Positions 6,282-35,641 of a stretch of 64,000 nucleotides of DNA are shown one piece after another. A program made the position numbers and the translations under genes. The stretch covers positions 248,001-312,000 of the forward strand of contig JAHNUO010000005.1 in the NCBI GenBank assembly GCA_019787685.1. Reading direction: 5' to 3'. This DNA is from Chiua virens (Eukaryota; Basidiomycota; Agaricomycetes; Boletales; Boletaceae). Each line of letters starts with the position of its first letter. Within the stretch, counting starts at the first letter, position 1. The notes beneath the pieces are model-generated. The model was not told where the DNA came from. It ran no database searches and was given only the letters and a program-made list of their open reading frames with translations.

Positions 6282-7318
6282 TAGTAGAGGCTGGTAGTCA
6301 GGAAGGTCAGTTGGTACAGAAGTACCGCGAACCGTACGCTGGGCAGTCGAACTTCAGCAAAGTTTGGCTGCAACTCCGGACTGAATGTTCAGGGACGAAT
6401 GGTATACACAAGTCAGTGAGCTGCCAGAGAAATACTTGAGGTAAATTGATACGAGCGAATCATTGTGTATTATAGGTACACCTGTAACCCTGGGCCGATA
6501 ACGACTAGCTAATTGAACAGGACCATGGATTCATCCCATTGTAGAAGTTCACTTCTAACAGTCACTATCAATGATGAGTTTCTCACCCATCAATGCATCA
6601 CCGATGTGCTGGAACATCGACCAGCTCATATGCCGATTCGTCGGAGTGAATACGGGCTTACAATATCATTGTGGTTTTTTCACACTCGTCAGCACGCCAC
6701 CTCCTTTTTTCTTTCTCCGCTTGGTGAGACTACGGGTCCTTCCTTCAGGTGCGCTTCATCTTTCGGTTTATCGTTGTCGAACTTGTCTCTCATCGTGTCG
6801 CCAGTGTATTAGTTTTTTGCGCTCACCCGTCCCTTCCTGATCCCATGTAATGTATCTGTATTTCCACTTTATTTTCGCTCTGTATTTCTTGTAGTAGCGT
6901 TTCGTGTGACTCGCCTGACTTATTCGGGTGTCCTGCTCGCGCCGTTGCTGAGTTGCCATCGTCGTGCAACCCGAGTTCGCTGGCTTCACGACGTGGCGCA
7001 TTTTCCTCACGCGAGACTGATTATCGAGCTCAACTTGTCCAAAAATTCAATCAGAGGGATGTCTGGGTTAAAACTACCCATGGTAATGAGTGAGTCCGAA
7101 TTCTATGCCGGAGTGATCACAAAGTACGTAACTAGTCGCAGTGCCGTAAGATTGCGCTGGAGTGGAAGAATTTATTCTCTTTGTAAAAGTCATCACAGGG
7201 TATGTAGTAAGTAGGATCAGAAGCAGCCTCGAATCTCCGATCAACGGACAACACTGGTCACAAAACATGACCACGATGTTACCGGTCCCTTAACTTTATT
7301 TTTTTTTCCACCACATCT
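6282..7318. other. intergenic between ATG17 and acyltransferase copy 1
   Basis: About 1 kb holding the ATG17 promoter (leftward) and the promoter of acyltransferase copy 1 (rightward). The open frames here are overlapping and have no recognisable domains. Just before copy 1 there is a T-rich run followed by CCACCACATCT directly at the ATG. The same block precedes copy 2, so the duplication carried the promoter. Confidence 0.5.
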
Positions 7319-9304
7319 ATGGCAGGCTGGACATTACTAGACGACAACGATCCAGCCCAAGGTCGTATCTTCGAGCGTCCTCTGGACCACGAGGAGGTCG
7401 CTTTCGTGTTGGATGCACGCATGAAAGGCACCACAGACTCTGGACAGTACTGTCAGCTGCGTCTCTTAAACGGTTCTCGAGACGCTCACCTCTTTTCGGA
7501 CGCCAACATCATTAGAGCGTGGTTGTCTACAAAGAGACGCTTTCCGCTCGCAGCAGCGACCATCCGTGGTCCGAAAATAGAAGGTGGTAATGGCGACAGC
7601 GATCCCGGCATCAATTCTGCTGCATTCCAAGCTCACTTCACTGTCCGCGAACGTGATCTCGCTGTCGTTCGTCCAAACGAGATCGTGTTCGGGCAGGTAG
7701 CGAGGTCAGAGGAGCTTACAAGGCCAGGTAGTTGCGATCCTTGATGGCCCACGTGTGCTTTCGCAGAATCTGCTCGTCCAGTTGCGCGTCTATCGCGAGA
7801 TCGACCCACAAAAAGCAGACATCCTGCATGTGGTTTCATTCATAGCGCATTCCGTGTCGGATACGACGGCGATACAGACGTTGACATCGTGTTTCTTGGA
7901 CACACTTGCAAGGGGAGGGGGTCCAGACTCAGAACCTGCGCAAATGTCACTGGAAGAGCGGTTGACTATGGCGGTTCCCCTTGCAGAGATGTTGTCGAAA
8001 CATATGCCCTCCCTCAGTGTGGCAAGGCGACGGTGGCGATTGGCAATTGCAAGAGTGATATTCGAGTGCAGAACAAGAAATTTTCAGGTAGGTGTCGTCT
8101 TTCTTTCTATGTCGTATATGTATATGTTGATCCCTGGCCCTGGGATGAGCAGGGTGGGTACACCCTTCCATGTCGCATCACACCCTCGACACAGATTACT
8201 CCCGCAAGAACTGGCTACGCATCTGTCTCCTTCACGGATGCGCAGACTGCTACCGTACTAGCTAACTGTCGTCGACACAATCACACCTTCGGAAACGCCT
8301 ACCTGCCCCTCGCACAGGTCGCGATGACCCGCGTGCTCTACCGACGATACCTTCGCGGAGAGATCTCAGAGGAAGAATGGGAATATCGAAAGAGGCAGCC
8401 ATATCTTACTGCAGGTCCTGTCAGCCTGCGTTCGCGTGTAGACAAGGAATGGCTCAATAGGGGAGGTGGAGGAGAATTTGTCCTTTCTTTGAGTTTATTC
8501 TTCTACCTACTTCCATTCATGACGCTCGGTACAGCAACAGAAAGTTCAGACCAAGGCCGACGCGTCTATTCGGACGGTGCACCTCCCTTCTCGAATCTGC
8601 TCACGTTCGACCGATTCTTACATCGCGTCGGGGTGGTCAAGAAGCAGGCAAATGCGTTTTTGAAGCATCCCTTACTTCTCGATATCGCCTATGCAACTAG
8701 TATGCGACATGCTTGGCTTGCACGGCTCGGGTTTATGCAATGGATGGATGGCAAGGACGAACCATCGAAGGGACGAGGTTCTGGCAGTATCAGACGACCC
8801 GATGGTTTTCGCTCACGGGGGGTCCAGTAGGGGCAATGTGGGTCTTCCCGTACTTCCTAAACTTCCCTCATGTTAATCTGTCAGCAGTTGGATTTAGTGT
8901 CCTCGACTAAATACCCCTTGCCACCTACTCACCCACTCTCACCTTACGCTCCCGTCTCGCATCCACTCAGAGCCGGCTATGTCAATCCTCCCGCTCAACC
9001 GCTACCTGACGCGGAGATTACGACAACCCCAAAGATCGTGGTGGAGAATAGCACACAAACGCTCTGTACCCGTCCGGGGGAACTATACCTTGGAGCTTCG
9101 AGCTCACGCGGACGATTGACAATGAACAGCTACTACGACAGAAACGTGTTCGAAGAAGAGGTGGTCAAAGAATGGTTGGATGAAGTAAAGGCAGCGGTAT
9201 TATGGTACCTCGGTCAAACGCACCAGTCGAGCCACGCTCCGCGTGGCAGCGTTGGTGGTAATGGACGACCTGAAAGTGGCAAATATTTATCCGCTAAACT
9301 GTGA
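7319..9304 (+). pseudogene. HxxxD acyltransferase-like protein, tandem copy 1 (two +1 frameshifts)
   Basis: First of four tandem paralogues. Exons 7319-8087, 8153-8837 and 8888-9304 match those of copies 2, 4 and 5. The N-terminal GWTLLDDNDP-QGRIFERPL block, an HSVSD motif (HxxxD, as in BAHD and condensation-domain acyltransferases), FLDTLARGGGP, the long second exon (YRRYLRGEISEEEWEYRKRQP) and the C-terminal EWLDEVKAAVLWYLGQTH all survive. The substrate is unknown; families of this fold move acyl groups from CoA or carrier proteins to alcohols or amines. Compared directly with copy 2, there is one extra C at about 7715 (after the codons for EE) and one extra G at about 8771. Each throws the frame; otherwise the copy is open. 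Probably a young pseudogene. Confidence 0.8.
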
Positions 9305-9635
9305 AATAAGAATGCGATATTCTGTTACAATTGTTATGACTGTTGTTCTACATACAGTGCTTATCATGTGATCCCACTGATGGACTTACATAAGTCAGCT
9401 CGTTCGTATATATAATGCACACTTTCGCAAGTACACACGACGACCCGAGGACCGGATACGGGACCCGTATGGTCGCGCTCACTCGGTGACAGTAGACCGA
9501 TTGCCGCGCCTTGCCACTAAATCCATGTCATCATTTAAGATTGCCCTGGAGTAGAGGCCCGGAGATTAGTTCATCCTGCGGGAAATCACGGTACAATAGT
9601 ATTGGTTCCTTGACCTTGTTTTTTTCACCACATCT
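9305..9635. other. spacer between acyltransferase copies 1 and 2
   Basis: Copy 1 terminator region and copy 2 promoter. The last 40 bases (a CCTTGACC-like stretch, T run, CACCACATCT, ATG) closely match the sequence before copy 1. Nothing else was recognised. Confidence 0.5.
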
Positions 9636-11599
9636 ATGGCAGGCTGGACATTACTAGACGATAGCGATCCAACCCAAGGTCGTATCTTCGAGCGCCCTCT
9701 GGACCACGAGGAGGTCGCTTTCGTGTTTGATGCACGCATAAAAGGCACCTCAGACACTGGACAGTACTTTCAGCTGCGTCTCTTGAACAGTTCTCAAGAC
9801 GCCCACATATTTTCGGACGCCAACATCATTAAGGCGTGGTTGTCTACAAAGAGACGTTTTCCGCTCGCAGCAGCAACCATCCATGGTCCGAAAATAGAAG
9901 GTGGTAATGGCGACGGCGATCCTGACATCAGTTCTGCCGCACTCCAAGCCCACTTCACTGTCCGCGAACGTGATCTCGCTATCGTTCGTCCAAATGAGAT
10001 CGTGTTCGGACAGGTAGCGAGGTCAGAGGAGTTACAAGGCCAGGTAGTTGCGATCCTTGATGGCCCACGTGTGCTTTCGGAGGATCCTCCTCGTCCACTT
10101 ACGCGTCTATCGCGAGGTCGATCCACAGAAGGCAAACATCCTGCATGTGATGGCATTCTTGGCGCATGTCGTGTCGGATGCAACGGGGACACGGACATTT
10201 ACATCGTGTTTCTTAGATACACTTGCAAGGGGAGGGGGTCCAGACTCAGAACCTACACAAATGTCACTGGAAGAGCGGTTGACTATGGCGGTTCCCCTTG
10301 CAGAGTTGTTATCGAAGCATATGCGCTCCCTCAGTCCAGCAAGGCGCCGATGGCGATTGGCAATCGGAAGAGTAATACTCGAGTGCAGGATGGGAAAGTA
10401 TCAGGCAAGTGTCGTCTTTCCTTCTATGTCGTATAGTCGCGCAGAATGGTGATTCATGAAATGAGCAGGGTGGTCACACACTTCCACGCCGCATCACGCC
10501 CTCGACACCGATCATTCCCGCAAGAACTGGCTACTGCAGCTGTCTCGCTCACGGATGCTCAGACTACTGCCGTGCTAGCGAACTGTCATCTCCACAATCT
10601 CAGCTTCGGAAACGCCTACCTGCCCCTCGCACAGGTCGCGATGACCCGCGTGCTCTACCGACGATACCTTCGCGGAGAGATCTCAGAGGAAGAATGGGAA
10701 TATCGAAAGAGGCAGCCTTATCTTACTGCGGGACCTCTCGCCATGCGTTCGCGTCTAGATAAGGAATGGTTCAATAGGGGAGGCGGAGGAGAATTCGTGC
10801 TCTCTATGGGCACACTCTTTTACAAGCTTCCATTCATGACGCTCGGTACAACGGCAGAGAGATTAGTCCACAGCCGTGTCTTTTCGGATGGTGTCCCTCC
10901 CTTCTCGGATCTCCTGACGTTCGACCGATTCTTGTATCGCGCGGGGTTGGTCAAGAAGCAAGCAGCGGCGTTGTTTGGACATCCCCTCTTTCGGGAGATT
11001 GTACATGCCAGCACTATTGGACATGCTTGGCTAGCGCGGCTCGGTTTTATGCAGTGGATGAATGACAAGGATAAAACCTCGAAGGATGAAGTCCTGGAAA
11101 TCTCGGGAGTTCCATGGGTATTTGCTCACGGGGGATCAAGTATGGGTAACGTGAGCCTTCCGATGATCTCCTGAATTTCCGCCTCATTTGAATCTGTCAC
11201 CAGTTGGATTTGGTATCCTCGACCGAATACCCCTTGCCACCTACTCACCCACTCTCACCTTACGCTCCCGTCTCGCATCCACTTAGAGCCGGCTATGTCA
11301 ATCCTCCCGCTCAACCGCTACCTGACGCGGAGGTTACGACAACGCCGAGTATCGTGGTGGAGAACAGCGCGCTAACGCTCTGTGCCCGTCCGGAGGAACT
11401 CTACCTTGGAGCTTGGAGCTTACGCGGGCAATTGAAATTGGACATGTGTTACGACAGAAATGTATTCGAAGACGAGGTGGCCGAAGAATGGTTGGATGAA
11501 GTAAAGGCAGCGGTATTGTGGTACCTCGCTCGAACACACCGGTCGAGCCTGGACCAACCTGACAGCCCGGGTGGCAAAGGCCTATCAGCTAAACTGTGA
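9636..11599 (+). pseudogene. HxxxD acyltransferase-like protein, tandem copy 2 (two +1 frameshifts)
   Basis: Closest paralogue of copy 1. Exons are 9636-10404, 10469-11150 and 11204-11599. HxxxD is present as HVVSD, and the C-terminal EWLDEVKAAVLWYLARTH block is intact. There is one extra C at about 10086 (GAG GAT[C]CTC CTC) and one extra T at about 10535 (GGC TAC[T]GCA GCT), both visible by comparison with copy 1, which keeps the frame at these places. Intron 1 starts with gcaagt, so it would be a GC-AG intron, where copy 1 has gtaggt. The two broken sites differ from those of copy 1, so the copies broke independently after duplication. Confidence 0.8.
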
Positions 11600-14082: not shown

Positions 14083-15897
14083 AATGAGAACCAAGCATAT
14101 CCTAATCGTTGAACCCACTGTTGCACGATAATACCTCGACATTGTCGATGAACCTGCTAGAAAACCAGAACTCGGTCGGCAGCAAACGATTGAGATCGTT
14201 CGTAGCTGATATGGTTCCTGAATATTTGCGCATAGTATGTCAACACTAGGTAATTAAAGATGATACGAAAGGATCACAAAAACGCACTTCAGCTTCTACC
14301 CCGCTCAAGGTTTGGGAAGTGAGAAATCTATCGAGCGCCATACACGCTCCACACAGATGGCGTCCCATTCCTGCTTTGCATTGATCAGTAGTAAAGCACG
14401 CGTCGTGTAATTGTGTGGAACAAAGACGTAGTGTCTGTTCATTAAATTTGAAATTTGAAACGTACTTCCCCGAGCAAGACCGTTGAAGACGTTTCGAGTC
14501 TTTGAAACAACCCAGTCGTGTACCTCAAATTCCTCAACGAATAATTGGCCTTTAGACATAATCGTTGGTAAACAGTTAGGGCCCCCGTCAAAACTAGAGG
14601 TACATTGATGTGACAAATCTATCCTGAATTCACATTTCTTGTTGTGTTATTTCCTCCAATCTGTTGTCAAGCACTGGCAGTTCAACTCATAAGCGGATTA
14701 CAACTGTGCCAGTGGGGGTTCTAACTGATTCTGAATCGGATCAACTCGCAACTTAAAGTTGGCCCATCGTGGCAGTAAAAGGTTAAATTCATTCATCTTA
14801 CGAAGCCATGACGTGACACCACTTGCCGTCAATGCTGGAGGCAGCAGAGTTCGAATTTCGAAAGGAGTGGGACCGCACATCGTAGTACTTAATTCCTTTA
14901 TAGCGCGGGAAGCGAAGAGGATGAAGCGGCCGCCGGGGGTCAGAACGATCAGTCAGGTCTGATAGTGATGGCCCGAGACTCAACTAGTACTGTAATAGCT
15001 TGGACCGATATGTAGTATATTAAATGCCGTGTAAGTACATACTACACGGTCTGCGCACAAACGGCACGCTGACAGCCGCATGGGCAGCTGCATGTGTTCG
15101 TGTCCCCGTAATAGGCAGCTTCTACTATTCATGTAGAATACTTCAGAACCGATACTACTAGAAAGAAGTGTTCGCAATGCTATAATTAGATCGATGTTAT
15201 CAGTTCCATCGGAAGAGAAGCCTGTATGGCGGCTGATTCTTTTCCAGTTATGATTGCTTCTATGGCCCGGATCTCTCACGTGTCCAATTGTAAAGTTGAA
15301 GCCATAGTACTTCATCGAATTCACCACGAAATTTATCAAATTTATTTACGTCGTGAAATGCGCGCAGAAATTACGGAAGTTGCTCACGAGTCACGCCAAT
15401 GGACCAGTGCTTAGTAGGACTCCGTGGTAAGTGTGCGTGCGAGGGAGAGGCTTCAAAGCTTCAGCTTCAAGCTTCAGGGCTGTCCGACAGTCGGAATCAG
15501 TCGGACTCTGTTTGTGCGCCCGTCAGGCACACATATGGGTCGGACTATAGGGCCCTGGGCTCCAGCGCTCCGCTACCCTGACCGCCTCCCATCGTTGTGC
15601 GTTGTGAGTGTCGATGAACTTGAGTGCCGCGGGAACTGGGGCTGCATTAGCAATGATGAGACGTGGAGCACTCCCACGAACCTTCGAGCACGCCACACCT
15701 TGTTGCATACATGCGGCACCACACACAGAAACCATTTTCGTGTCCTAAAGCTCATGCGATACATTGTAAAACTAATACTTACGTTGGTCAACCCTGGATG
15801 CTCCACGGGAAAAAAAATCACGCAATATGCGTCAATGAACAAACCATAAAAGGGACGTGCTTGGTCTCGTGTTGGTCTCCATTTCACACCCCATCAG
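14083..15897. other. spacer between acyltransferase copies 3 and 4
   Basis: About 1.8 kb with no recognisable gene on either strand. Near 15,450-15,510 there are short direct repeats (CTTCAAGCTTCAG-like). The last 20 bases (TTTCACACCCCATC before the ATG) resemble the promoter end of copy 3. Confidence 0.4.
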
Positions 15898-17833
15898 ATG
15901 CCTGGCTGGACATTAGTCAACACTCATCCCATCCAAGGTCGTACCTTCGAGCGTCCTCTGAGTCCAGCGGAGGTCGCCTTCATCTTGGATGCGCGGATTA
16001 AAGGGTCCGCAGATTCTGCACAGTACTTTCAACTGCGTCTCCTAAATGGTTCTCGAGATGCTTACCTCTTCTCGAATGCCAACATTCTTAGAGCGTGGAT
16101 CTCCACAAAGACGCGTTTCCCTCTCGCAGGTGCCACCATCCGTCGTCCAAAAACGGATGGCGATCTCAATGACAACCTCGGACCCGCACTCCAGGCTCAC
16201 TTTGTTGTTCAGGAACACGATCTTGCTACCGTTCAGCCACATGAGGTTATTTTCGAGGAGGTGGCGAACGCGGAGGAGCTGCAAGCCAAGGAGGTTGAAA
16301 TTCTCGATGGTCCACGTGCGCTTTCGGAGGACCTTCCTGTCCAGTTGCGTATCTATCGTGAGACTGATCCGCGCAGGGCAGACGTCCTGCACATAGTGAT
16401 GTTGATAGTGCATTCTACCTCAGACCTTATGGCGATTAACACCTTAACGCGGTGTTACCTTGATGCACTCGCAAGGGGAGGGGAACCAGAGCCTGCGCAA
16501 TATCCACTGGAGGAGAGGTTGGCGATGGTGGTGCCCCCTGCAGAGCTGTTTCCAAAGCAGCTTCGCTCGTACAATGTGGCACGGCGACGATGGAGAATGG
16601 CGATCGCGCAAGTCGTATATCAGCTTATGATGAGAAAAAATACCGTGAGTGCTACCATTCTTATTGATGTCCTGGGCCGTGTTGATGGGATGGGCAGGGC
16701 GGACAAACACTTCCTTGTCGCGTCACGCCCTTGACGTCGATTACTCCTGCAAGAAGTGGCTACATGTCTGTTACATTTACAGAAACACAGACTGCTACTG
16801 TGCTAGCCAATTGTCGCCTCCACAATCTCACCTATGGAACTGCCTATCTACCCCTCGCACAGGTAGCGATGACCCGAGTGCTCTACCGACGATACTTGCG
16901 TGGAGAGATATCTGAGAAAGAATGGGAATATCGAAAGAGGCAGCCGTACCTCAACGTAGGTCCTCTCAGCTTGCGGCCACGACTAGAGAAGGATTGGTTC
17001 GAGAAGGGAGGTGGAGGTGACTTTATTTTTTCCGTGAGTTTCTTCTTTTACAGGCTCCCGTTCATGACGCTGGGGGCGACAGAGGGGTGGAAACAAAACG
17101 GCCACCTGTTGGACGGTGCACCCCCCCTCTCGGAGCTCCTCACGTTTGACCGGTTCTTGTATCGCGCCGAGTTGGTGAAGAACCAGGCAAGAACACTTTT
17201 CGGACATCCCCTCTTTTTCGAAATCGTAGAAGTGGCCGGTATGGCCCATGTTCGGCGTTCATGCATGGGTGCTCTACGGTGGCTGGATCATAAAGATAAA
17301 AGCTCCGAAGATGATGAAAAGATTCTGTCCGTTACGGACTTGCCTATAGCCGTTGCTCACGGCGGGTCTAGCCTCGGTAATGTGCGTCTTCTCATCATCG
17401 ATTGTTCCTCAAATCATTTTTGATCTGTCACCAGGTGGACTTAATATCCCCGACTGAATTCCCCTTACCACCCACCCACCCACTCTCACCTTATGCTCCC
17501 GTTTCGCATCCACTTCGGGCAGGCTATGTCAACCCTCCCGCCCAGCTGCCATCGGTTACCACGGCTCCGAAGATTATAATGGATAGCCGTCCAACAATGC
17601 TCTGCGCGCATCCGGGAGAGCTGTACCTTGGAGCATCGAGCTCACAAGGACGGATGAAAATGTTCGTATATCATGATAGGAACGTATTTGATGATGGGGT
17701 GACAAAAGAATGGTTGGACGAGGTGAAGGCGGCGGTGTTGTGGTACCTTGGCCAGACCCACCTGTCGTGCCGTGCTCGTCGGAATGGGGTGGATCACGAT
17801 GAACGACACGGAGGCACACAAGCAAAACTGTGA
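15898..17833 (+). CDS. HxxxD acyltransferase-like protein, tandem copy 4 (intact)
   Basis: The only full-frame member of the tandem array. Exons 15898-16644, 16698-17381 and 17435-17833 join in phase 0 throughout, giving roughly 610 residues. The N-terminal block is PGWTLVNTHPIQGRTFERPL. The motif HSTSD (HxxxD) falls near residue 165, and the second half carries FFYRLPFMTLG, LLTFDRFLYRAELVK and a C-terminal PGELYLGASSSQGR plus EWLDEVKAAVLWYLGQTH. The His-Asp motif and two-lobed size suggest a BAHD or condensation-type acyltransferase acting on a small metabolite. The family has no function I can name. It is the likely source or surviving partner of the decayed copies upstream. Confidence 0.75.
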
Positions 17834-23230: not shown

Positions 23231-24014
23231 ATGCACAACAATGGAAATGCTAATCAGGAAGTAGAGGGATAGGGATGAGAATTAAGTGACTGATGTGGAC
23301 TGCTAGATGACAGAGGGTGAATGGGTTACAAGGATCATGGCAAGCTGCCTAAGGATTTAAGGATTATGTGGTGCCTGCACCATCAAGGTGCTTCCAAAGA
23401 GGGTTGCACAAATGTTCTTGGCTGTGTAGTTTTGTTGTGAGATCATGGGGACTGAGCTGGACATAGGTTGACAGAGAAGATTCCTGTGCAACACATCCCT
23501 GAAAGGGATGAAGACAAAGACAAAGAAGCAACACTTGCATTGAAATGGCAGGATACACATGCTACATAAGTATGTCTTTCCATTCATTTTCAATTGTTCT
23601 AACACCTGGGATGAACAATCAGGGCACATTTACTGTATATACATATATCTTGTCTTGTTTGGATTGTTTCATCACTCTCATGTCGTGTAGGAGTACTGAA
23701 GGATGTCTTTATTGTCAAACAAGTCTTGTGACAGTCCACAAGCATTCTGGGCATGTACTTCAGGAAATAGAAATAGACAGAAACAGAAACAGAAACAGAA
23801 ACAGAATGTGTAAGATATAAGTCCCATGATTGAATATATGGTGGGATTAAGTGAGTCAACATGCATTGTGTAAGCAGGACCTTACAGCAAACACAAATAA
23901 GCAAAACAGGTTCTTTAAAGGAAACAAAGAAAAGTGATTGTGGCAAAAGAAAGAAAACCTAACACAAACACATTCTAGACCTTGTAGTATTGTTGTAGCA
24001 TTGTGCATAGTGGT
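23231..24014. other. AT-rich, CpG-poor gap, no gene seen
   Basis: About 780 bp between two convergent genes. Only one CpG (near 23684) was found. No convincing open frame beyond a short hexanucleotide repeat. Confidence 0.4.
23776..23804 (+). repeat. short CAGAAA hexanucleotide repeat
   Basis: About five tandem CAGAAA units in the AT-rich gap between the YCG1 relic and the GTPase gene. No function is apparent. Confidence 0.7.
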
Positions 24015-27000
24015 TCACTTTCTGATGTTTGTAGCTATAAAATTTGAAAACATGTTAGAATGATCAAGAGGACTGATAACTTACAAATCAGATTCTGAGA
24101 TATGAGATGCATGATATGCTGTTTCATTTCCTTGTGATCTTCAAAGTCATATTCAGAAATGAGCTCAGAGATTGCTTTATTGACAGCATTGATTGTGCCA
24201 GAGGATATGTAAAGCTCATTAGCCACTTTGAGTGGATTGTCAACACCTTGTTGGTGTACAAAGAAGGAATGTTCTAGAATAATAGCACAACCTACAAATA
24301 CCAATGAGTGTAATCATTGAATGTAATTAAAAACCAACCAATCCCAGAATGAAGTGCTTTGTTCAACAGACTGCTTTTCTTTGAGAACTGAAGTATATCA
24401 TCATGATAATGTGAGGTAAAAATAACGATGCAGTCAATCTACTTACAATAGATGTGGATGACATTGAGTGTGGTACTATAGCTGAAGAATCTGCAACCTG
24501 ATTTTATATGAATTGAGTAAAATGGCAGGATAATGATAAAAAATGAATTAACATACTCTTGAAGATGCCAATATCTACAGATTTAATGTTATGTATTATT
24601 TGTATAGTGAAATATACAAATATTACAAACCTCCTGGGAAGGAATGAAAATAAGTAAAAATGAGGGGAAAATAAAATGAATTGGCTCATACATGCTAAGT
24701 GATTAAAATGAATAGAAAAGAAAATGTTAAAAATTTAATATGAAAGCTCACATCCTAAGTGCAGAAATATTAGTATCCATATAAAGTAAAATTAATGAAA
24801 GATTACCTACAAACTATGAATGGGAGAATGGGGTAAGACAGATAGACATGAATTAGCATACTTCTAAAGTTCTATTTGTACTCAGAGCACTAACTTCCTA
24901 TAAATGAGAGAACAAGGGCAAGAGAGAGGGGCATGTGTCAACAGCCTTCTGAAACCCTATTCACAATCAGAGCACCTACTTCCTATGAATGAGAGGACAA
25001 GGGAAAGACAGAGGGGTATAGATCAGCATCCTTCTGATACCCCATTCACAATCATAGCACTTACTCCCTATGAATGAGAGGACAAGGGAAAGACAGAGGA
25101 GCATGCATTAGCATCCTTCTGAAACCCCATTTACAATCAGAACACTTACTCCCTATGAATGTAAGGACCAGGGAAAGACAGAGGAGCATGCATTAGCATT
25201 CTTCTAAAATCCTATTCACAATCAGAGTACTTACTTGCTATGAATGAGAGCACAAGGGCAAGACAGAGGGACATAAATCAACATCCTTCTGAAACTTCAT
25301 TCACAATTAGAGCACTGACTTCCTATGAATTAGAAGACAAGGGCAAGACAGAGGGGCATGCATCAGCATCCTTGTGAAATCCCATTTACAATCAGAGCAC
25401 TTACTTGCTATGAATGAGAGCACAAGGGCAAGACAGAGGGGCATGCATCAGCATCCTTCTGAAATCCCATTAACAATCACAGCACTTACTTGCTATAAAT
25501 GAGAGCACAAGGGCAAGACAAAGGGGCATGGATCACCATCCTTCTGAAATTCCATTCACAATCAAAGTACTTACTTCCTGTGAATGAGAGCACAAGGGCA
25601 AGACAGAGGGGCATGCATCAGCATCCTTCTGAAATCCTATTCACAATCAGAGCACTTACATACTATGAATGAGAGAACAAGAGCAAGATAGAGGAGCATG
25701 AATCAGCATTCTTCTGAAACCACATTCATAATCAGAGCACTTACATACTATTAATGACAGGACAAGGGGAAGACAGAGGAGTATGGATCACCATCCTTCC
25801 AAAACTCTATTCACAATCAGAGCACTTACTCCCTATGAATGAGAGAACAAGGGCAAGACAGAGGGACATGGATCAGGATCCTTCTGAAATCTTATTCACA
25901 ATCAGAGCACTTACTTTCTATGAATGAGAGGACAAGGGCAAGACAGAGGGGCACAGATTAGCATCCTTCTAAAACCTCATTCACAATTAGAGCACTTACA
26001 TACTATGAATGACAGGACAAGCGCAATACAGAGGAGCATAGATCAGCATCCTTCTGACACCCCATTCACAATCAGAGCACTTACATACTATGAATGAGAG
26101 GACAAGGGCAAGACAAAGGGGGATAGATCAGGATCCTTCTGAAACCCTATTCACAATCAGAGCACCTACATACTATGAATAAGAGCATAAGGGTAAAACA
26201 GAGGGGCATAGATTAGTATCCTTCTGAAACCCCATTCACAATAAGAGCACTTACTTGCTATGAATAAGAGAATAAGGGGCAAGAGAAAGAGAAAGAGAGA
26301 TGAATCAGTATCCTTCTGAAACCCAATTCACAATCAGAGCACTGACATACTATGAATGATAGGACAAGGGCAAGACAAAGGAGCATGGGTCAGTATCCTT
26401 CCAAAATCCCATTCACAGTCAAAGCACCTACTCCCTATGAATGAGAGGACAAGGGAAAGACAGAGGGGCATGGATCAGTATCCTTCTCAAACCCTATTCA
26501 CAATCAGAGCACCTACTTCCTATGAGTGAGAGGTCAAGGGAAAGACAGGGACAGGGATCAGTATCATTCTGAAATCTCATTCACTGTAAGAGCACTTACT
26601 CGCTATAAATAAGAGGACATGGGAAAGACAGAGGGGCATGCATCAACATCCTTCTGAGATCCCATTCAAAATCAGAGCACCTACATACTATGAACAAGAG
26701 AACAAAGGCAAGACAGAGGGGCATACATCAGTATCCTGCTAAAATCCCATTCACAATCAGAGCACTTACTCGCTATGAATTAGAGGACAAGAGCAAGACA
26801 GAGGGACATGCATCAGTATCCTTGTGAAACACCATTCACAATTAGAGCACTTACTTGCTATAAATGAAAGGATAAGGGCAAGACAGAGGGGCATGCATCA
26901 GTATCCTTCTAAAACCCCATTTATAATCAGAGCACTTACTTGCTATGAGTCAGAGAACAAGGGCAAGACAAAGGGGTATGGATCACCATCCTTCTGAAAT

Positions 27001-29893
27001 CCTATTCACAATCAGAGTACCTACTCGCTATGAATGAGAGAACAAGGGCAAGATAGAGGGGCATGGATCACCATCCTTCTGACACCCCATTTACAATCAG
27101 AGCACTTACATACTATGAATGACAGGACAAGGGCAAGACAGAGTGCTATGCATCAGCATCCTTCTGAAATCCCATTCACAATCAGAGCACTTACTCACTA
27201 TGAATTAGAGGACAAGGGCAAGACAGGGGGGCATGGATTAGCATCCTTCTGAAACCCCATTCACAATCAGAGCACTTACTCGCTATGAATGAGAGAACAA
27301 GGGCAAGACAGAGGGGCATGGATCAGCATCCTTCTGATACCCCATTCACAATCAGAGCACTTACATACTATAAATGACAGGACAAGAGCAATACAGAGGG
27401 GCATGGATCACCATCCTTCTGACACCCCATTCACAATCAGAGCACTTACTTGCTGTGAATGAGAGGACAAGGGCAAGACAAAGGAGCATGCATCAGCATT
27501 CTTCTGAAACCCCATTCACAATTAGAGCACTTACATACTATGAATAAGAGGACAAGGGCAAGACAGAGGGGCACAGATCAGCATCCTTCTGAAACTCCAT
27601 TCACAATCAGAGCACTTACATACTATGAATGACAGGACAAGGGCAAAACAGAGGGCCATGCATCAGCATCCTTCTGAAACCCCATTCATAATCAGAACAC
27701 TTACTTGCTATGAATGAGAGGACAAGGGCAAGACAAAGGGGCATGCATCACCACCCTTTGGACACCCCATTCAAAATCAGAGCACTTACATACTGTGAAC
27801 AAGAGGACAAAGGCAAGACAGAGGGGCATGCATCAGTATCCTTTTGAAATCCCATTCACAATCAGAGCACTTACTTCCTATGAATGAGAGGACAAAGGCA
27901 AGACAGAGGGGCATGCATCAACATCCTTCTGAAATCCTATTCACAATCAGAGCACTTACATACTATGAATGAGATAACAAGGGCAAGACAGAGGGGCACA
28001 GATCAGCATCCTTCTGAAATCCCATTCATAATCACAGCACTGACATACTATGAATAAGAAGACAAGGGCAAGACAGAGGAGCATGGATAAGTATCCTTCT
28101 GAAATCTCATTCATAGTCAGAGCACTTACTCCCTATGAATTAGAGCACAAGGACAAGACAGGGGGGCACAGATTAGCATCCTTCTGACACCCCATTCACA
28201 ATCAGAGCACTTACTCCCTATGAATGAGAGCACAAGGGCAAGACAGAGGAGCATGGATCAGCATCCTTCTGAAGTCCTATTCACAATCAGAGCACTTACA
28301 TACTATGAATGAGAGGACAAGGGCAAGACAGAGGGGCATAGATTAGTATCCTTCTGAAACCCCATTCACAATCAGAGCACTTACTTCCTATGAATGAGTG
28401 AACAAAGGCAAGACAGAGGGGCATGGATCAGCATCCTTCTGAAATCCCATTCACAACCAAAGTACTTACTCTCTATAATGCAAAAACATAAATTAGATCT
28501 TGTTACCATGACTATTAACTTATACTACATATAAGATTGCTTACCTCAACATGTGGAAACCATGATGCAATTCCTGTCCTCATGGACTGCTGTTCAGCAC
28601 TAGTCAGTGACTCATTCACCCTGTGTTTATGCTCTATGAGAGGTATCAAAATCCTATGGAACATGTTAACAGGTATGATCAAAAGGATGTACACTTTATC
28701 TAATTACCCTTCCATGGCAAACTCAATGCAGAGCATGATATTTGTGTGTTGTGCAGTCACAAGTAGCATTTGCAGGGCTTCTTCATCTAAGGCCCTCACA
28801 GTCATTTCAATGAGAAGTTTACACTCCTGATCAGATTTGTTCAAATCTTTATGTATGACATCAGTTTGTATGCCATGTAAAGAGAAATTTTATGTGCACA
28901 TACCCCTTAACTCCACCTTTGCTGTTGGTTTATACTTCATATTTGTTACCTTTCCCCATACAGGATTATTCTTTAACATCCTCTCAGCATTTTCCTGTCC
29001 CCTCACAAGTCTTTCCTCTCGGGGTAGCTTTTTCTCCTCCAGTGTTAAGGCTGCAATGCCTTGCAGCAGAAGTGCATCACATTTTGTGAGCACAAGTATG
29101 ACAGGCACTGTAAACAAACATGAAAAATGAACAAGTTGCCATTATAGTTGAGGAATGTTCACCATTTCCGGTGTCACACTCATCAAAAAACTTTTCCTCA
29201 GCAGCCAAGACTGCCCGGTGGTATTGATCCATAGGAATACAGTACCTATTCGATAACATGTCATTGTTGCTACATGCTGCTGTTTCTGGTTACGATTACC
29301 ATATGGCATGGATACGCTTCTTCAGGAATGTTGTATTTGCGCGGTCCGAAACAAAGTCCTTCATCTTCTCGAATTCTTCTATACTTCCAGCTTCGAAGCC
29401 CTGCGAGTCGTGAAAAATGAAATTCGGGTTGCTTCGAAAGACCAATTCATTCTCGATATTATGAATTCCGCGCTAGAGATGTGTTAGTTGAATGTTACTG
29501 ATAACGACGTCACAGTCGTGGAACTGTGTCTGTGGAACTTACATCCGTGGTTCCCTCGATCTCTGCTGGATCGACCTGATCACAGACCATCAGTGTCCCG
29601 TGTCCACCTCTCGTGAGGAATTGGCATACCTTGTTCCCACTTCCATCGTAGACCTCTGGATCTTCCGTAGAGTTACAGATCTGCTTGAGTATCGTAGTTT
29701 TCCCAGCATTGGCACGGCCAATGATAAGGACTCTGAAACGTCCGAATTTCTCTCTGATGTTGTCGATCTGTATGGTAGTAGATTCTGCGGGAACGTCACC
29801 GGGAATGTCACCGAGGGATTCTCCAAGCACTTCTCCAGGGACGTCTGCGGGAGCTTTGGAGCGAAAGCATGGGAGGCAAAGGAACATTTTCAT
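24015..29893 (-). CDS. P-loop GTPase with an array of candidate 3-nt micro-exons
   Basis: Start ATG 29893-29891, stop TGA 24017-24015. Upstream exons 29893-29543, 29472-29300, 29245-29163, 29107-28904, 28846-28708 and 28653-28545 join in frame. They carry G1 GRANAGKT, G3 DSQG and G4 TKCD, followed by a helical region (EMTVRALDEEALQMLLVTAQ), as in the large basidiomycete family of small G-domain proteins of unknown role. Downstream exons are 24633-24627 (7 nt), 24574-24553 (22 nt), 24490-24447, 24387-24339, 24291-24085 and 24034-24015, giving EVYIGIFKSIFFSYSTTLNVI and CAIILEHSFFVHQQG. Between them, phase 0 on both sides, lie 46 candidate 3-nt exons (see the repeat entry). One junction (24447 to 24387) leaves one extra base. 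Codon use is AT-rich, unlike the neighbours. Confidence 0.75.
24692..24694 (-). other. candidate single-copy 3-nt micro-exon (CAT)
   Basis: CAT between a cacttag acceptor and a gtatga donor. The following intron (24691-24634, 58 nt) has a strong pyrimidine tract ending in cccag, then the 7-nt exon GAGGTTT with donor gtaata. Confidence 0.5.
24752..24754 (-). other. candidate single-copy 3-nt micro-exon (GAT)
   Basis: GAT lies between a cacttag acceptor and a gtgagc donor. The upstream intron (24810-24755, 56 nt) contains tactaat, a near-perfect branch site; the downstream one (24751-24695) is 57 nt. It lies outside the satellite, so it is independent support for one-codon exons in this gene. 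Confidence 0.5.
24808..28480 (-). repeat. 43-unit, 85-bp tandem array; each unit is an intron-like 82 nt plus 3 nt
   Basis: Period 85 bp, with three exceptions (83, 92 and 84 bp). On the minus strand each unit reads: donor gtaagt (rarely gtaggt, gtcagt or gttagt), an internal tttcag, GGATGCTGATCC holding a CTRAT branch-like site, a pyrimidine-rich stretch, then catag, three bases, and the next donor. GT and AG are present in all 43 intervals. The three bases are TAT (15 units), CAA (8), GAA (7), GGA (6), CGA (4), AGA, AAA and TGA (1 each), starting at 28472 with AGA; a TTT at 24813-24811 closes the series. Read in the host gene's phase 0 these are Tyr, Gln, Glu, Gly, Arg, Lys and one stop. 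The inner tttcag is lost in about five units, so it is under less constraint than the outer AG. The array could instead be one long intron containing a satellite. Confidence 0.9.
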
Positions 29894-33033: not shown

Positions 33034-35023
33034 TCATAACTTAGCCTGAGGGCCTTGCCTCGGCTCTGCTCTCCCCTGACGCGACTCGTGCGTCTGACCA
33101 AGGTACCACACGACTGCCCCCTTGATTTCATCTAGCCACTCCGTCGCGACTGCGTGTTCAAAGATGTTATTATCGAAAGAAGCGACCAATTTCATGCGTC
33201 CCCTGAAACTCCATGCCGTGATATAAAGTTCCGCTGGGCGTGCATGGAGATGCAGCCAGCTGTCTACTAACGCGATTTTCGGGGTCGTACTATCCTTCAA
33301 GGCAGTCGATGGGGGCGTGACATAGCCCGCCTTGAACTGGTGTGGGACAGACGAATCTGGCGAGAGCGGGTTCGTAGCCGGTATGGGGTATTCGTGTGGT
33401 ACCATCGACGCCAGCTACGATCACCGATCAACGACAAGGACTGACAACGGGAGAGAAGGACATACGTCACCAAAGCTAGAGCCCACATGAGCGGGCATCT
33501 TTAGTATGTCCGAGACCGCCACAACCGTGTCGTCTACCTCTTCGCGCACGCCGTTTTTGGCGGCTTCGGTACGCTTCAACCACTCCAACGTCATTGGCCG
33601 GAAACGTACGAGACGTTGTGTACTGGACATGTTCACCATATCAAGGAAGAGAGGAAGTTTCAAAAGCGCCCTCGCCTGCTTTTTTATCAAGTCTGTACGA
33701 TGCAGGAAGCGGTCAAACGTGAGGAGCTCGGAGAATGGCGGGGCGCCATCCGAGAGACCAACGTTCCGTCCATGGGGTGTGTAACGACTCTCCGTTTCAC
33801 CGAGCGACATGAATGGGAGCTGGTAAAAGAATAAACCGAGGGACATGACGAACTCGCCTCCACCACCCGCCTGGAACCACGCCTTATCGAGAGACGGGCG
33901 TAGGTTAAGGGGACCTGTAATCGTATGGGGTTGCTTCTTTCGATACGCCCATTCCTCCTCCGAGATCTCGCCGCGTAAGTAACGTCGGTAAAGCACCCGA
34001 GTCATGGCCACTTGAGCAAGAGCGAGGAAGGCATTTCCAAATGTGACCTTGTGCAAACGACAGTTGGCCAACACATCAGAGGTTTCTTGCGACGAGAGCT
34101 TGACGGATATTTCGCGAGATCTTGCAGGGACGGAAACTGTCGATTTCGTAAACCGGCCCGGAAGCGTATGTCCACCCTACGATAACGATGCAGGCGCCGT
34201 AAGTGATTCGGGGGAAGATCCACAACTGATAGTCGAAAGACATGCCTGTATCTTTTCCATCCGCGATCGGAATATCAGGCTTGCGACAGCGTTCCGCCAC
34301 CGTCGCTTTGCCGGACTGATGGAACGCAAATACGGAGGCTCAACGTCCGGTAAAGGGACGGCCATAGGCCAACCTCTTCTCTAATGGTATTTGAGCAGGC
34401 TCCTCTCCAGCTCGTGCGAGCGTGTCCAAGAAACACCGTATGAAGGTGTAGTTGGCTGTCCCATCTGTCACGCAATGCGCCACCGTAACAAGCAAGTGCA
34501 GCATGTCCGTCTTGATCCCGCGTACGACGTGCAACTGCATCAAAAGATCCTCCGAGAGCGGTCGTGGGCTGGCATCAAAGAAGCTCGATATTCGCTTCGT
34601 CACCTCCTCCTCCGAAACCGCCTGTTCGAAGATGATCTCGCCCGGACGAACGACAGTAAGGTCGTGCTCCCGGATGACAAAGCAAGGCTTCGAGGCAAAG
34701 CCTGCGATCCTTCCACCGTTGACACCGTCATCGGCAGCTTTCGGGTCTGTCACTTTGAATGGCATGCCGGACGGCCCTTGTATGGTGGCGCCGACTTGCG
34801 GGAAACGTCTCTTTACAGATAGCCACGTTTTGATTATATTGGCGTCTGAAAACAGATGGGCGTCCATGGGACCGTTCAGCAAACGTATTTGATAAGCGAG
34901 AACAGTGTCTGCGGTGCCGTTGAAGATGCTATCCCAGACATAGCTCAGCTCGGATATGTCCACGGGACGTTGGAAGGTACGTCCTTGAGTAGGATGGGTG
35001 TCGAGCAAGGTCCAGCCAGTCAT
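33034..35023 (-). pseudogene. HxxxD acyltransferase-like protein, inverted copy 5 (one +1 frameshift)
   Basis: Start ATG 35023-35021 (MTGWTLLDTHPTQGRTF). Exons are 35023-34246, 34176-33466 and 33414-33034. This copy has the clearest active-site motif of the five, HCVTDG (HxxxDG), and ends like copy 4 with EWLDEIKGAVVWYLGQTH. It is the most diverged in sequence and lies 15 kb away in the opposite direction. One extra T at about 34366 (TTG GCC[T]ATG GCC) breaks exon 1 between KRLA and MAVPLPD; without it the exon reads through. Intron 1 begins gcatgt, so it would be a GC-AG intron, as in copy 2. If the extra base is a sequence error, this is a second intact enzyme. Confidence 0.75.
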
Positions 35024-35641
35024 CGATGTGAATGTTAGGTAGCCGGAAGGAGGGGGGAGGGAAGAAAATACCTGTTTCACTAGCATGGGTTTTATAGAAC
35101 CCCGCTCAAGAAGTTGAAGCTGTGCCTATCACTGCCAGATTTGAGGCCAGGACCGAGGATAGCGGAACGTTCTAGATTTCTTGATTAATTGATCCTCGGA
35201 CTCAAATCGTCGAAGTACATTCCGAGCGTTTGCAGCTTGGAGCTACAGCGCCGCAGCAGCGGAGTGGTTCAGTAACTTCATGATGACGCAAAAGGCATCA
35301 ATGATTGATTCACCAGTAATTTTTGACGAACGGAACTTATGAACGCCGATTAGTAGTCGGTAACTTGTAAACAGAATTAAGAACCCCGTGCCTCGTTGTA
35401 ACGCCTCAGGCATCAGGCCCAGGCAGCACCCTTCAAATCCAGCAGTATTGTTGGCCGCATCTTGGTGATTTCGTAGACGTCAGCAAGACCGTGACCGGCC
35501 CGGTGACGAGTTAGTCGTGGCTGCGGAGGATGCACATGCTTGGACGTAATGGTCTTGACACTGAATCTTGTTCGGGACGAGTGCTGTATAATATGTACTT
35601 ACGTCACTAAAATGGCTACCATCAGGTGTTCCTGGTCACGA
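35024..35641. other. intergenic upstream of copy 5
   Basis: Promoter region of acyltransferase copy 5 and 3' flank of the zinc-finger gene. No gene seen. Confidence 0.4.

Follow-up and report, generated by a model that had tools for sequence, protein, structure and literature searches.

Why should a GTPase gene carry, between its two conserved parts, dozens of near-identical introns that lie only three bases apart, and are those three bases read as codons? The question is raised by a locus of Chiua virens within the stretch of 64,000 nucleotides analysed here, which we call the window. We consider it very probable that the variable segment of this GTPase family is encoded as tandem one-codon exons between near-identical spliceosomal introns of about 82 nt.

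The array and its host gene

The N-terminal part of the host gene matched the GTPase family PF01926, and the Pfam scan gave GTPase families only. The coordinates of the gene model are collected in Table 1. Exon 7 terminates in ...WFPHVE in phase 0, and the introns among exons 1-7 are 54-70 nt long. The array that follows was detected independently by TRF with a period of 85 and 42.2 copies (24882-28470), and an exact parse of the minus strand resolved 43 consecutive head-to-tail units. The preliminary description of this DNA had claimed 43 tandem copies of an 85-bp unit, and both methods bore this out, with 40 of the 43 units being exactly 85 bp and the others 83, 84 and 92 bp. The corresponding introns are 82 nt in 40 units and 80, 81 and 89 nt in the rest.

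Every one of the 43 introns starts with GTNNGT and closes with ATAG or ACAG, just as GT and AG had been said to be kept in every interval. Position by position, the 40 units of 85 bp vary most at the first triplet base, with an entropy of 1.7 bits, and the GT, the GT at +5/+6 and the AG are invariant; this pattern of a variable triplet base against fixed GT and AG exceeds chance. The AG of the inner acceptor is retained in 34 of these 40 units, in close agreement with the loss in about five units described before. When G or T was allowed as the first base, branch-like sites were found at positions 39-43 (CTRAY-like, 39 of 40 units) and 72-76 (CTNAY-like, 36 of 40 units). The units carry the signature of U2-type spliceosomal introns, namely GT...AG, an extended GTRAGT-like donor and a CTNAY branch-like site. 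They are not stwintrons, as the 43 introns are sequential, three bases apart, and none is interrupted by another copy. The triplets between them are TAT (15), CAA (8), GAA (7), GGA (6), CGA (4), TGA (1), AAA (1) and TTT (1). Read without splicing, the array meets 74, 82 and 79 stops in its three frames, and this reading was rejected.

Downstream of the array, three further one-codon exons are flanked by introns of 56-58 nt that are not copies of the unit. The exons after them encode the C-terminal domain ...GIGCAIILEHSFF..., which was found by tblastn with the relative P0015 at 44% over 72 aa. The flanking exons had been described as phase 0, and the frame indeed runs on to this conserved C-terminus. 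The complete model has 59 exons, 47 of them of one codon, and is open to the terminal stop save for one internal TGA. Introns outside the array are 47-72 nt, and all introns of the gene fall within 47-89 nt. The internal TGA, in unit 15, would truncate the window copy if its exon were included, and this copy may be inactive or may skip the exon; its array is old, with an intron divergence of 0.09 from the consensus.

Table 1. Features of the window gene, in positions of the window
Feature	Position	Strand	Evidence or remark
GTPase-domain exons 1-7	28545..29893	-	PF01926, relatives P0001 and P0015
GTPase exons 1-4	29893-29630, 29575-29543, 29472-29300, 29245-29163	-	
GTPase exons 5-7	29107-28904, 28846-28708, 28653-28545	-	
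First one-codon exon AGA, non-repeat	28472-28470	-	Between 72-nt non-repeat intron and first array intron
Array, 43 x (intron GT...AG + three-base exon)	24811..28469	-	TRF and exact parse
In-frame TGA, exon of unit 15	27197-27195	-	Exact parse
Last array exon TTT	24813-24811	-	
Post-array one-codon exon GAT	24754-24752	-	
Post-array one-codon exon CAT	24694-24692	-	
Post-array one-codon exon GAG	24633-24631	-	
Downstream exons	24574-24557, 24497-24447, 24387-24339, 24291-24085, 24034-24015	-	tblastn with P0015
Terminal stop TGA	24017-24015	-	

The predicted structure of the protein had a mean pLDDT of 82, and a PDB search gave weak matches that carry no weight (BDLP, E 6.4e-6, TM 0.32); the model weakly resembles dynamin-like GTPases. 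A search of the genome with PF00071 found 54 small-GTPase pieces elsewhere and gave no lead. Just past the downstream end of the gene lies a perfect (ACAGAA)5 microsatellite (23777-23806). Elsewhere in the window, a protein family whose members begin M(A/P/T)GWTL is present in four copies (7271-8830, 9600-11174 and 15850-17423 on the plus strand, 33421-35125 on the minus strand), each broken across two or more reading frames.

Arrays across the genome, splice sites and stops

The genome of Chiua virens (48.3 Mb, 136 contigs) was searched with the unit consensus, which gave 1137 matches. The junction CATAG-NNN-GTAAGTGCTCTG occurred exactly 997 times and, at no more than one mismatch, 1595 times, and the same junction written backward, as a control, occurred 0 times. 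The arrays are a genome-wide phenomenon and are not confined to the window locus. A search with the GTPase exon gave 214 matches, about 150 of them listed, and 41 of 42 parsed segments behind GTPase paralogues contained an array of at least four core units; in the remaining segment, C4+137221, an array was absent. These segments were mostly picked by their GTPase match, and several arrays end at the segment edge, so it does not follow that every copy of the unit is located with a GTPase gene. By tblastn, the C-terminal domain was located beyond the array, on its downstream side, in 14 of 30 segments, and the majority of the remaining 16 do not extend that far. Unit junctions also occur at C4:84.1-84.4 kb and C3:645555 with no GTPase match among the matches listed, and may be fragments, unlisted genes or dispersed copies. 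As to whether the units occupy dispersed sites, as introners do, the parsed segments were mostly GTPase-chosen and 100 of the 1595 junction places were listed.

An HMM was trained on at most 300 distinct intron interiors, with the splice sites left out, and recovered 902 copies, of which 777 were full-length with both ends inside the segment. AG stood at the expected place in all 777 of them and GT in 773. Among the four others, two read AAGTGC, probably through a two-base shift of the alignment, one reads AAAGGT, and one has a GC donor. The latter (GCAAGT, on C5 near 322.97 kb) makes an apparent GC-AG intron. Elsewhere in the intron, old arrays diverge by 8.6% from their own consensus. In the sister arrays C11-1839595/C59+67287, substitutions were counted at 103 of 1739 intron sites and indels in six introns, as against a change in one of 22 codons, in which all three bases were altered. 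Two other sister pairs, C8+1529520/C26-106159 (introns 57/2041 sites, codons 2/25) and C11-1607042/C82+36568 (introns 6/685 sites, codons 0/8), yield counts that are too few alone to demonstrate constraint.

To count stops, we dropped two near-identical arrays from 41 and retained 39 arrays with 800 triplets. Three stops were seen, compared with 77.9 (61-96) expected when the three triplet columns were shuffled within arrays, a procedure that treats units as independent; in 300 runs the shuffled count was never below 61. Genome-wide, the 997 exact junctions comprise 434 NRA and 259 TNN triplets and only five TRA, all TGA, where independence predicts about 113. Both tests overstate independence, since units share descent. 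A stricter test, in which codons were taken to mutate like introns, was applied to 18 old arrays with 373 codons, and found two stops versus 6.9 expected and 27 off-lexicon codons versus 42.9 (25-59) expected; it points in the same direction with modest, weaker strength. The codon agreement in some sister arrays, together with selection against stops, suggests that most codons are usually included. Besides the window copy, stops are borne by C8+1529520 (TGA at unit 5) and C4-1807528 (TAA at unit 37), and such copies may be dead or may skip the exon. A further TGA triplet, at C2:2553685-2553704 on the minus strand, lies further along the array C2-2555500, whose parsed units have near-identical introns, so that stops can arise in young arrays too.

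The triplet set nearly assigns a single codon to each amino acid (GGA, TAT, CTT, GAA, TTT, CGA, GAT, CAA, CCA, GCA and so on), with synonymous exceptions such as GCA/GCT and CGA/AGA. TGG accounts for 12 of the 22 triplets whose third base is G, and NAG occurs once among the 800. The NTA triplets (TTA, CTA, GTA and ATA), none of which is a stop, number three of 800, where shuffling predicts about 87. Stop avoidance thus leaves part of the triplet bias unaccounted for, and one guess is that NTA is scarce owing to a competing TAG acceptor. Decoy donors, in which AG-TRA-GT would create GTRAGT, were rejected as the cause of the missing TAA and TGA, as TAT (124/800) and TTT (58/800) are common and make GTATGT and GTTTGT. 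Targeted random hypermutation of the triplets was likewise rejected as the main cause, since young arrays, with 362 triplets, use only 21 kinds.

The triplets are in frame and nearly stop-free, as translated one-codon exons should be, with one stop in the window copy. The chain of single-codon exons proposed in the preliminary description is supported by the scarcity of stops, the kept GT and AG, the frame and the variable segment of relatives. The same description had left a codon chain and a serial splicing relay side by side; as judged from sequence, the chain is strongly favoured over a neutral satellite, and a relay or the skipping of exons could coexist with it.

Codon strings in paralogues, probable alleles and relatives

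Codons and introns vary largely independently. Over 28 arrays, exons differ at 0.38-0.71 per site whatever the age of the array, as against 0 to 0.18 per site for introns. Pairs of units with identical introns share their codon a little more frequently than all pairs do in C26+6253 (23/136 versus 15%), C8-1645812 (79/267 versus 23%), C27-285568 (47/177 versus 24%) and C41+83500 (15/67 versus 22%), and a larger excess was seen in C5-1936716 (8/19 versus 18%). Seven identical introns in C10+1397962 go with the codons GAA GGA GAA TGG GGA GGA GAA. One 83-nt intron sequence occurs 85 times in four arrays and precedes 11 different triplets, and slow neutral divergence was rejected on this ground. 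It had been proposed that one intron plus one codon was amplified into the array. This account is incomplete, as codons and introns are largely uncoupled and the codon strings differ between paralogues and between probable alleles.

Gene positions and 1-kb probes (97% and 99%) show the contigs C26 and C27 to be collinear with parts of C8 and C6 in inverted orientation. For C26 the mirrored region is that of C8 at around 1.39-1.65 Mb, and two gene positions show C27 to mirror C24 as well. On these grounds C26 and C27 resemble a second dikaryon haplotype, and the assembly would locally contain both haplotypes, a long segmental duplication being the alternative. A 1-kb probe at C41:150000 found no second copy in the genome. 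Codon strings disagree in four of the five probable allele pairs. C8-1645812 and C26+6253 have flanks of 99.3% and 98.8% and the same intron consensus, with 35 and 19 units, respectively, whose codons are unalignable (z 1.5). The codons are likewise unalignable in C24+381493/C27-285568 (upstream 95.1%; z 0.1) and in the first 11 units of C8+1428704/C26-207596 (97.5%; z -1.1), and are partly alike in C6+98503/C27-56025 (100% over 472 bases upstream, 99.1% over 344 downstream; z 6.2). In the fifth pair, C8+1529520/C26-106159, the strings are alike (z 7.9). The candidate alleles C41/C42, with flanks of 99.7% and 98.5%, have unalignable codons (z -0.1). Across 54 array pairs with upstream flanks of at least 93%, among which many arrays are incomplete, five reached z of at least 3 and four more z of 2-3; the intron consensus in these 54 pairs is 95-100% identical.

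Nine close pairs were compared, namely the five allele pairs and C41/C42, C46/C9, C11-1607042/C82 and C11-1839595/C59+67287. The introns of the four that agree in codons (C8+1529520/C26-106159, C46/C9 and the two C11 pairs) are diverged, at about 0.03 or more from consensus, and each of the five that differ includes at least one array with nearly uniform introns, less than 0.01 from consensus. Such a relation between intron uniformity and codon agreement is a prediction of recombination-driven turnover, although it was noticed after the fact. Two older pairs with diverged introns and flanks of 93% are not clearly alike (C1/C13, z 2.7; C1/window array, z 0.1).

Among relatives, we considered the best 120 of 1183 proteins and P0121, making 121. 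A WFPH-like motif occurs beyond residue 180 in 52 of them, and 49 of these 52 (43 annotated, six from jgi contigs) terminate no more than about 45 residues past the motif, in a set for which the main search returned proteins of at most 446 residues and so favoured short models. The early-ending GTPase proteins (among P0011-P0119) come from Boletus, Suillus, Rhizopogon, Pisolithus, Tylopilus, Imleria and others, and gene models of these Boletales relatives may fail at WFPH owing to such arrays. P0015, P0023, P0039 and the partial P0121 continue past WFPH into the C-terminal domain, and searches with the C-terminal part, which covered proteins of up to about 770 residues and were word-based so that distant relatives may be missed, returned only these four. 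Their contigs, of 1094-1691 bases, have no room for the introns of the window gene and for this reason are taken as cDNA, by length rather than from a label.

Between WFPH and the C-terminal domain, at the place occupied by the array in Chiua, these four proteins have a variable segment of 15-32 residues, with borders set by eye: SQERFEVFREFVFEF, FWIRPGYPKWPPANHKQFDDGYEKGERFEVDF, FWTRDNFDWYYQDDRRDF and TKEKELLWLLGGLEEELLLERKRDRERNQ. In the segments, 4 of 94 residues are I, M, S, T or C, versus 22.6 expected from the rest of the proteins (24.1%; P=2e-7); in the Chiua arrays the count is 16 of 800. The composition of the segments correlates at 0.51 with the Chiua arrays and at 0.26 with the rest of the relatives' proteins. 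Three of the four segments end in F; TTT is the last exon in 11 arrays of the 85-bp type, and is replaced by another exon in C4-1807528, C34-218613 and C17+708498. The peptide predicted for C26+6253 is ADAARDYYRYYGYYTDGAF, with its final F from a TTT exon. We infer that the genes of the four relatives contain one-codon exons as well. P0019 (WFPHFW-EYYYLGAG-VSCALW...) can be interpreted as a string of eight codons spliced together, after which an intron of the array type was retained. Boletus edulis P0024, when back-translated after WFPHFQW, fits one intron present twice in tandem at a spacing of 91 nt, in a run of 35 nt that reaches the protein end, where the best of 4080 control offsets gave 23. 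Arrays thus probably exist outside Chiua.

Mechanism, alternatives and known systems

Short fungal introns are recognised across the intron (intron definition), and each array intron would be removed in this manner, like any other short intron of a fungus. Once an intron is gone, the growing exon would abut the following donor, so that one-codon exons would need no exon definition, and in the mature mRNA a string of roughly 20-45 single codons would link the WFPH motif to the C-terminal domain. The intron copies would be homogenised, the units would be duplicated, lost and shuffled by recombination like a hypermutable minisatellite, and selection would keep the codons translatable and diverse; the outcome would be a peptide that differs among paralogues and probable alleles. 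Arrays with diverged introns, that of the window included, may recombine little and be frozen. For introns homogenised without their codons, diversifying selection plus exchange would be the default account, and conversion confined to introns a possible one.

A single splice from 28545 to 24813 or beyond could also skip the 3.7-kb array altogether, in which case the repeat would be a non-coding minisatellite inside one long intron, and GT, AG and triplets would be functionless. Tandem repeats are common within introns, the window copy does hold an in-frame TGA, and since the relatives' gene models stop near WFPH the triplets appear in none of those annotations. We nevertheless regard this as very unlikely in view of the depletion of stops among the triplets, the GT and AG that persist in all but four full-length units despite the divergence of old arrays elsewhere in the intron, and the codons that changed less than the introns in the sister pair C11-1839595/C59+67287. 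Relatives also have segments of similar composition at the same place, and the other introns of the gene reach only 72 nt.

Equivalent splice sites in all 43 units would equally suit a splicing device for diversity, in which combinatorial skipping, every skip being in frame, or a stepwise relay would yield many isoforms and the exact codon string would be less important. Alternative choices do exist, as TAT exons make GTATGT and the inner acceptor is mostly kept, and P0019 looks like eight joined codons plus a retained intron. Selection against stops and the codon agreement of sister arrays suggest instead that most codons are usually included, and we hold such a device to be very unlikely as the explanation, although it is compatible with the codon chain and could coexist with it. 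The least likely of the accounts considered is an introner burst, by which a mobile intron was inserted repeatedly between the codons of an existing coding stretch whose remains are the triplets. Near-identical introns in arrays on many contigs, identical introns that part unrelated codons, and the junctions on C4 and C3 apart from any listed GTPase match would fit it. Insertion after every codon and always in phase 0 is hard to account for, however, and triplets ending in A or T at near one codon per amino acid are unlike an ordinary exon. The allele-like pairs moreover differ in codon number and order, and the parsed segments sit behind GTPase genes, though they were mostly chosen so.

Returning to the chain of one-codon exons, we infer for the segment a role as a self/non-self or other recognition surface. 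Somewhat doubtful, and offered tentatively, is the further idea that the arrays are an actively rewritten peptide repertoire, in which introns are kept identical, one-codon cassettes are reordered and the two nuclei of a single mushroom carry different recognition peptides at one and the same GTPase gene. Excised intron RNA, being codon-free, would then possibly be the template for intron homogenisation, and the repertoire would be a hypermutable minisatellite with its variant code read out by splicing.

A literature search of open-licence papers found no description of such one-codon exon arrays, and several known systems resemble them in part. Introners or introner-like elements are near-identical introns multiplied in a genome (PMC9860276, PMC4457414), described as making introns by insertion into exons in a way that best fits DNA transposition (PMC9860276), whereas the Chiua introns are head-to-tail arrays at one homologous position. 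In Cryptococcus, an intron-containing DNA repeat was expanded such that two introns became identical to three others in one gene (PMC2395259); this case concerns few introns, and the cited excerpt mentions no one-codon exons, dozens-long array or family. The micro-exon genes of Schistosoma mansoni are likewise a family rich in very short exons, reported at 3-81 bp with introns of up to 5 kbp (PMC10526429), but the array exons in Chiua are all of one codon and the introns are one tandem 82-nt sequence. That the spliceosome can include exons of 1 nt and 3 nt is described for Arabidopsis APC11 (PMC4674806) and Drosophila homothorax (PMC7392893), in both cases single tiny exons in otherwise ordinary genes. 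Isolated exons of 1-3 nt have been curiosities until now, and in Chiua protein segments are seemingly spelled by them wholesale. If confirmed, the arrays would test intron definition against a long series of one-codon exons and make testable how small exons in series can be, and introns would act as spacers in a coding minisatellite that changes rapidly.

The nearest evolutionary mechanism seems to be that of the hnwd genes (het-d/het-e/het-r) of Podospora anserina. These NTPase WD-repeat genes are reported to carry repeats up to 100% identical within and between genes, with concerted evolution and four codon positions under diversifying selection (PMC1805685), and deletions, duplications and new repeat variants are described in mutants (PMC2873952). 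The Chiua arrays share with them homogenised repeats with few diverse coding positions. The hnwd repeat is, however, a coding WD unit, while that of Chiua is a spliceosomal intron whose variable coding part is a three-base exon, and the N-terminal part of the Chiua protein is a PF01926 GTPase rather than belonging to a STAND/NACHT protein with WD repeats. By analogy, the Chiua arrays would work like hnwd without being members of it, and it becomes a testable question whether GTPase-based recognition repertoires driven by repeats exist in fungi alongside hnwd-like genes.
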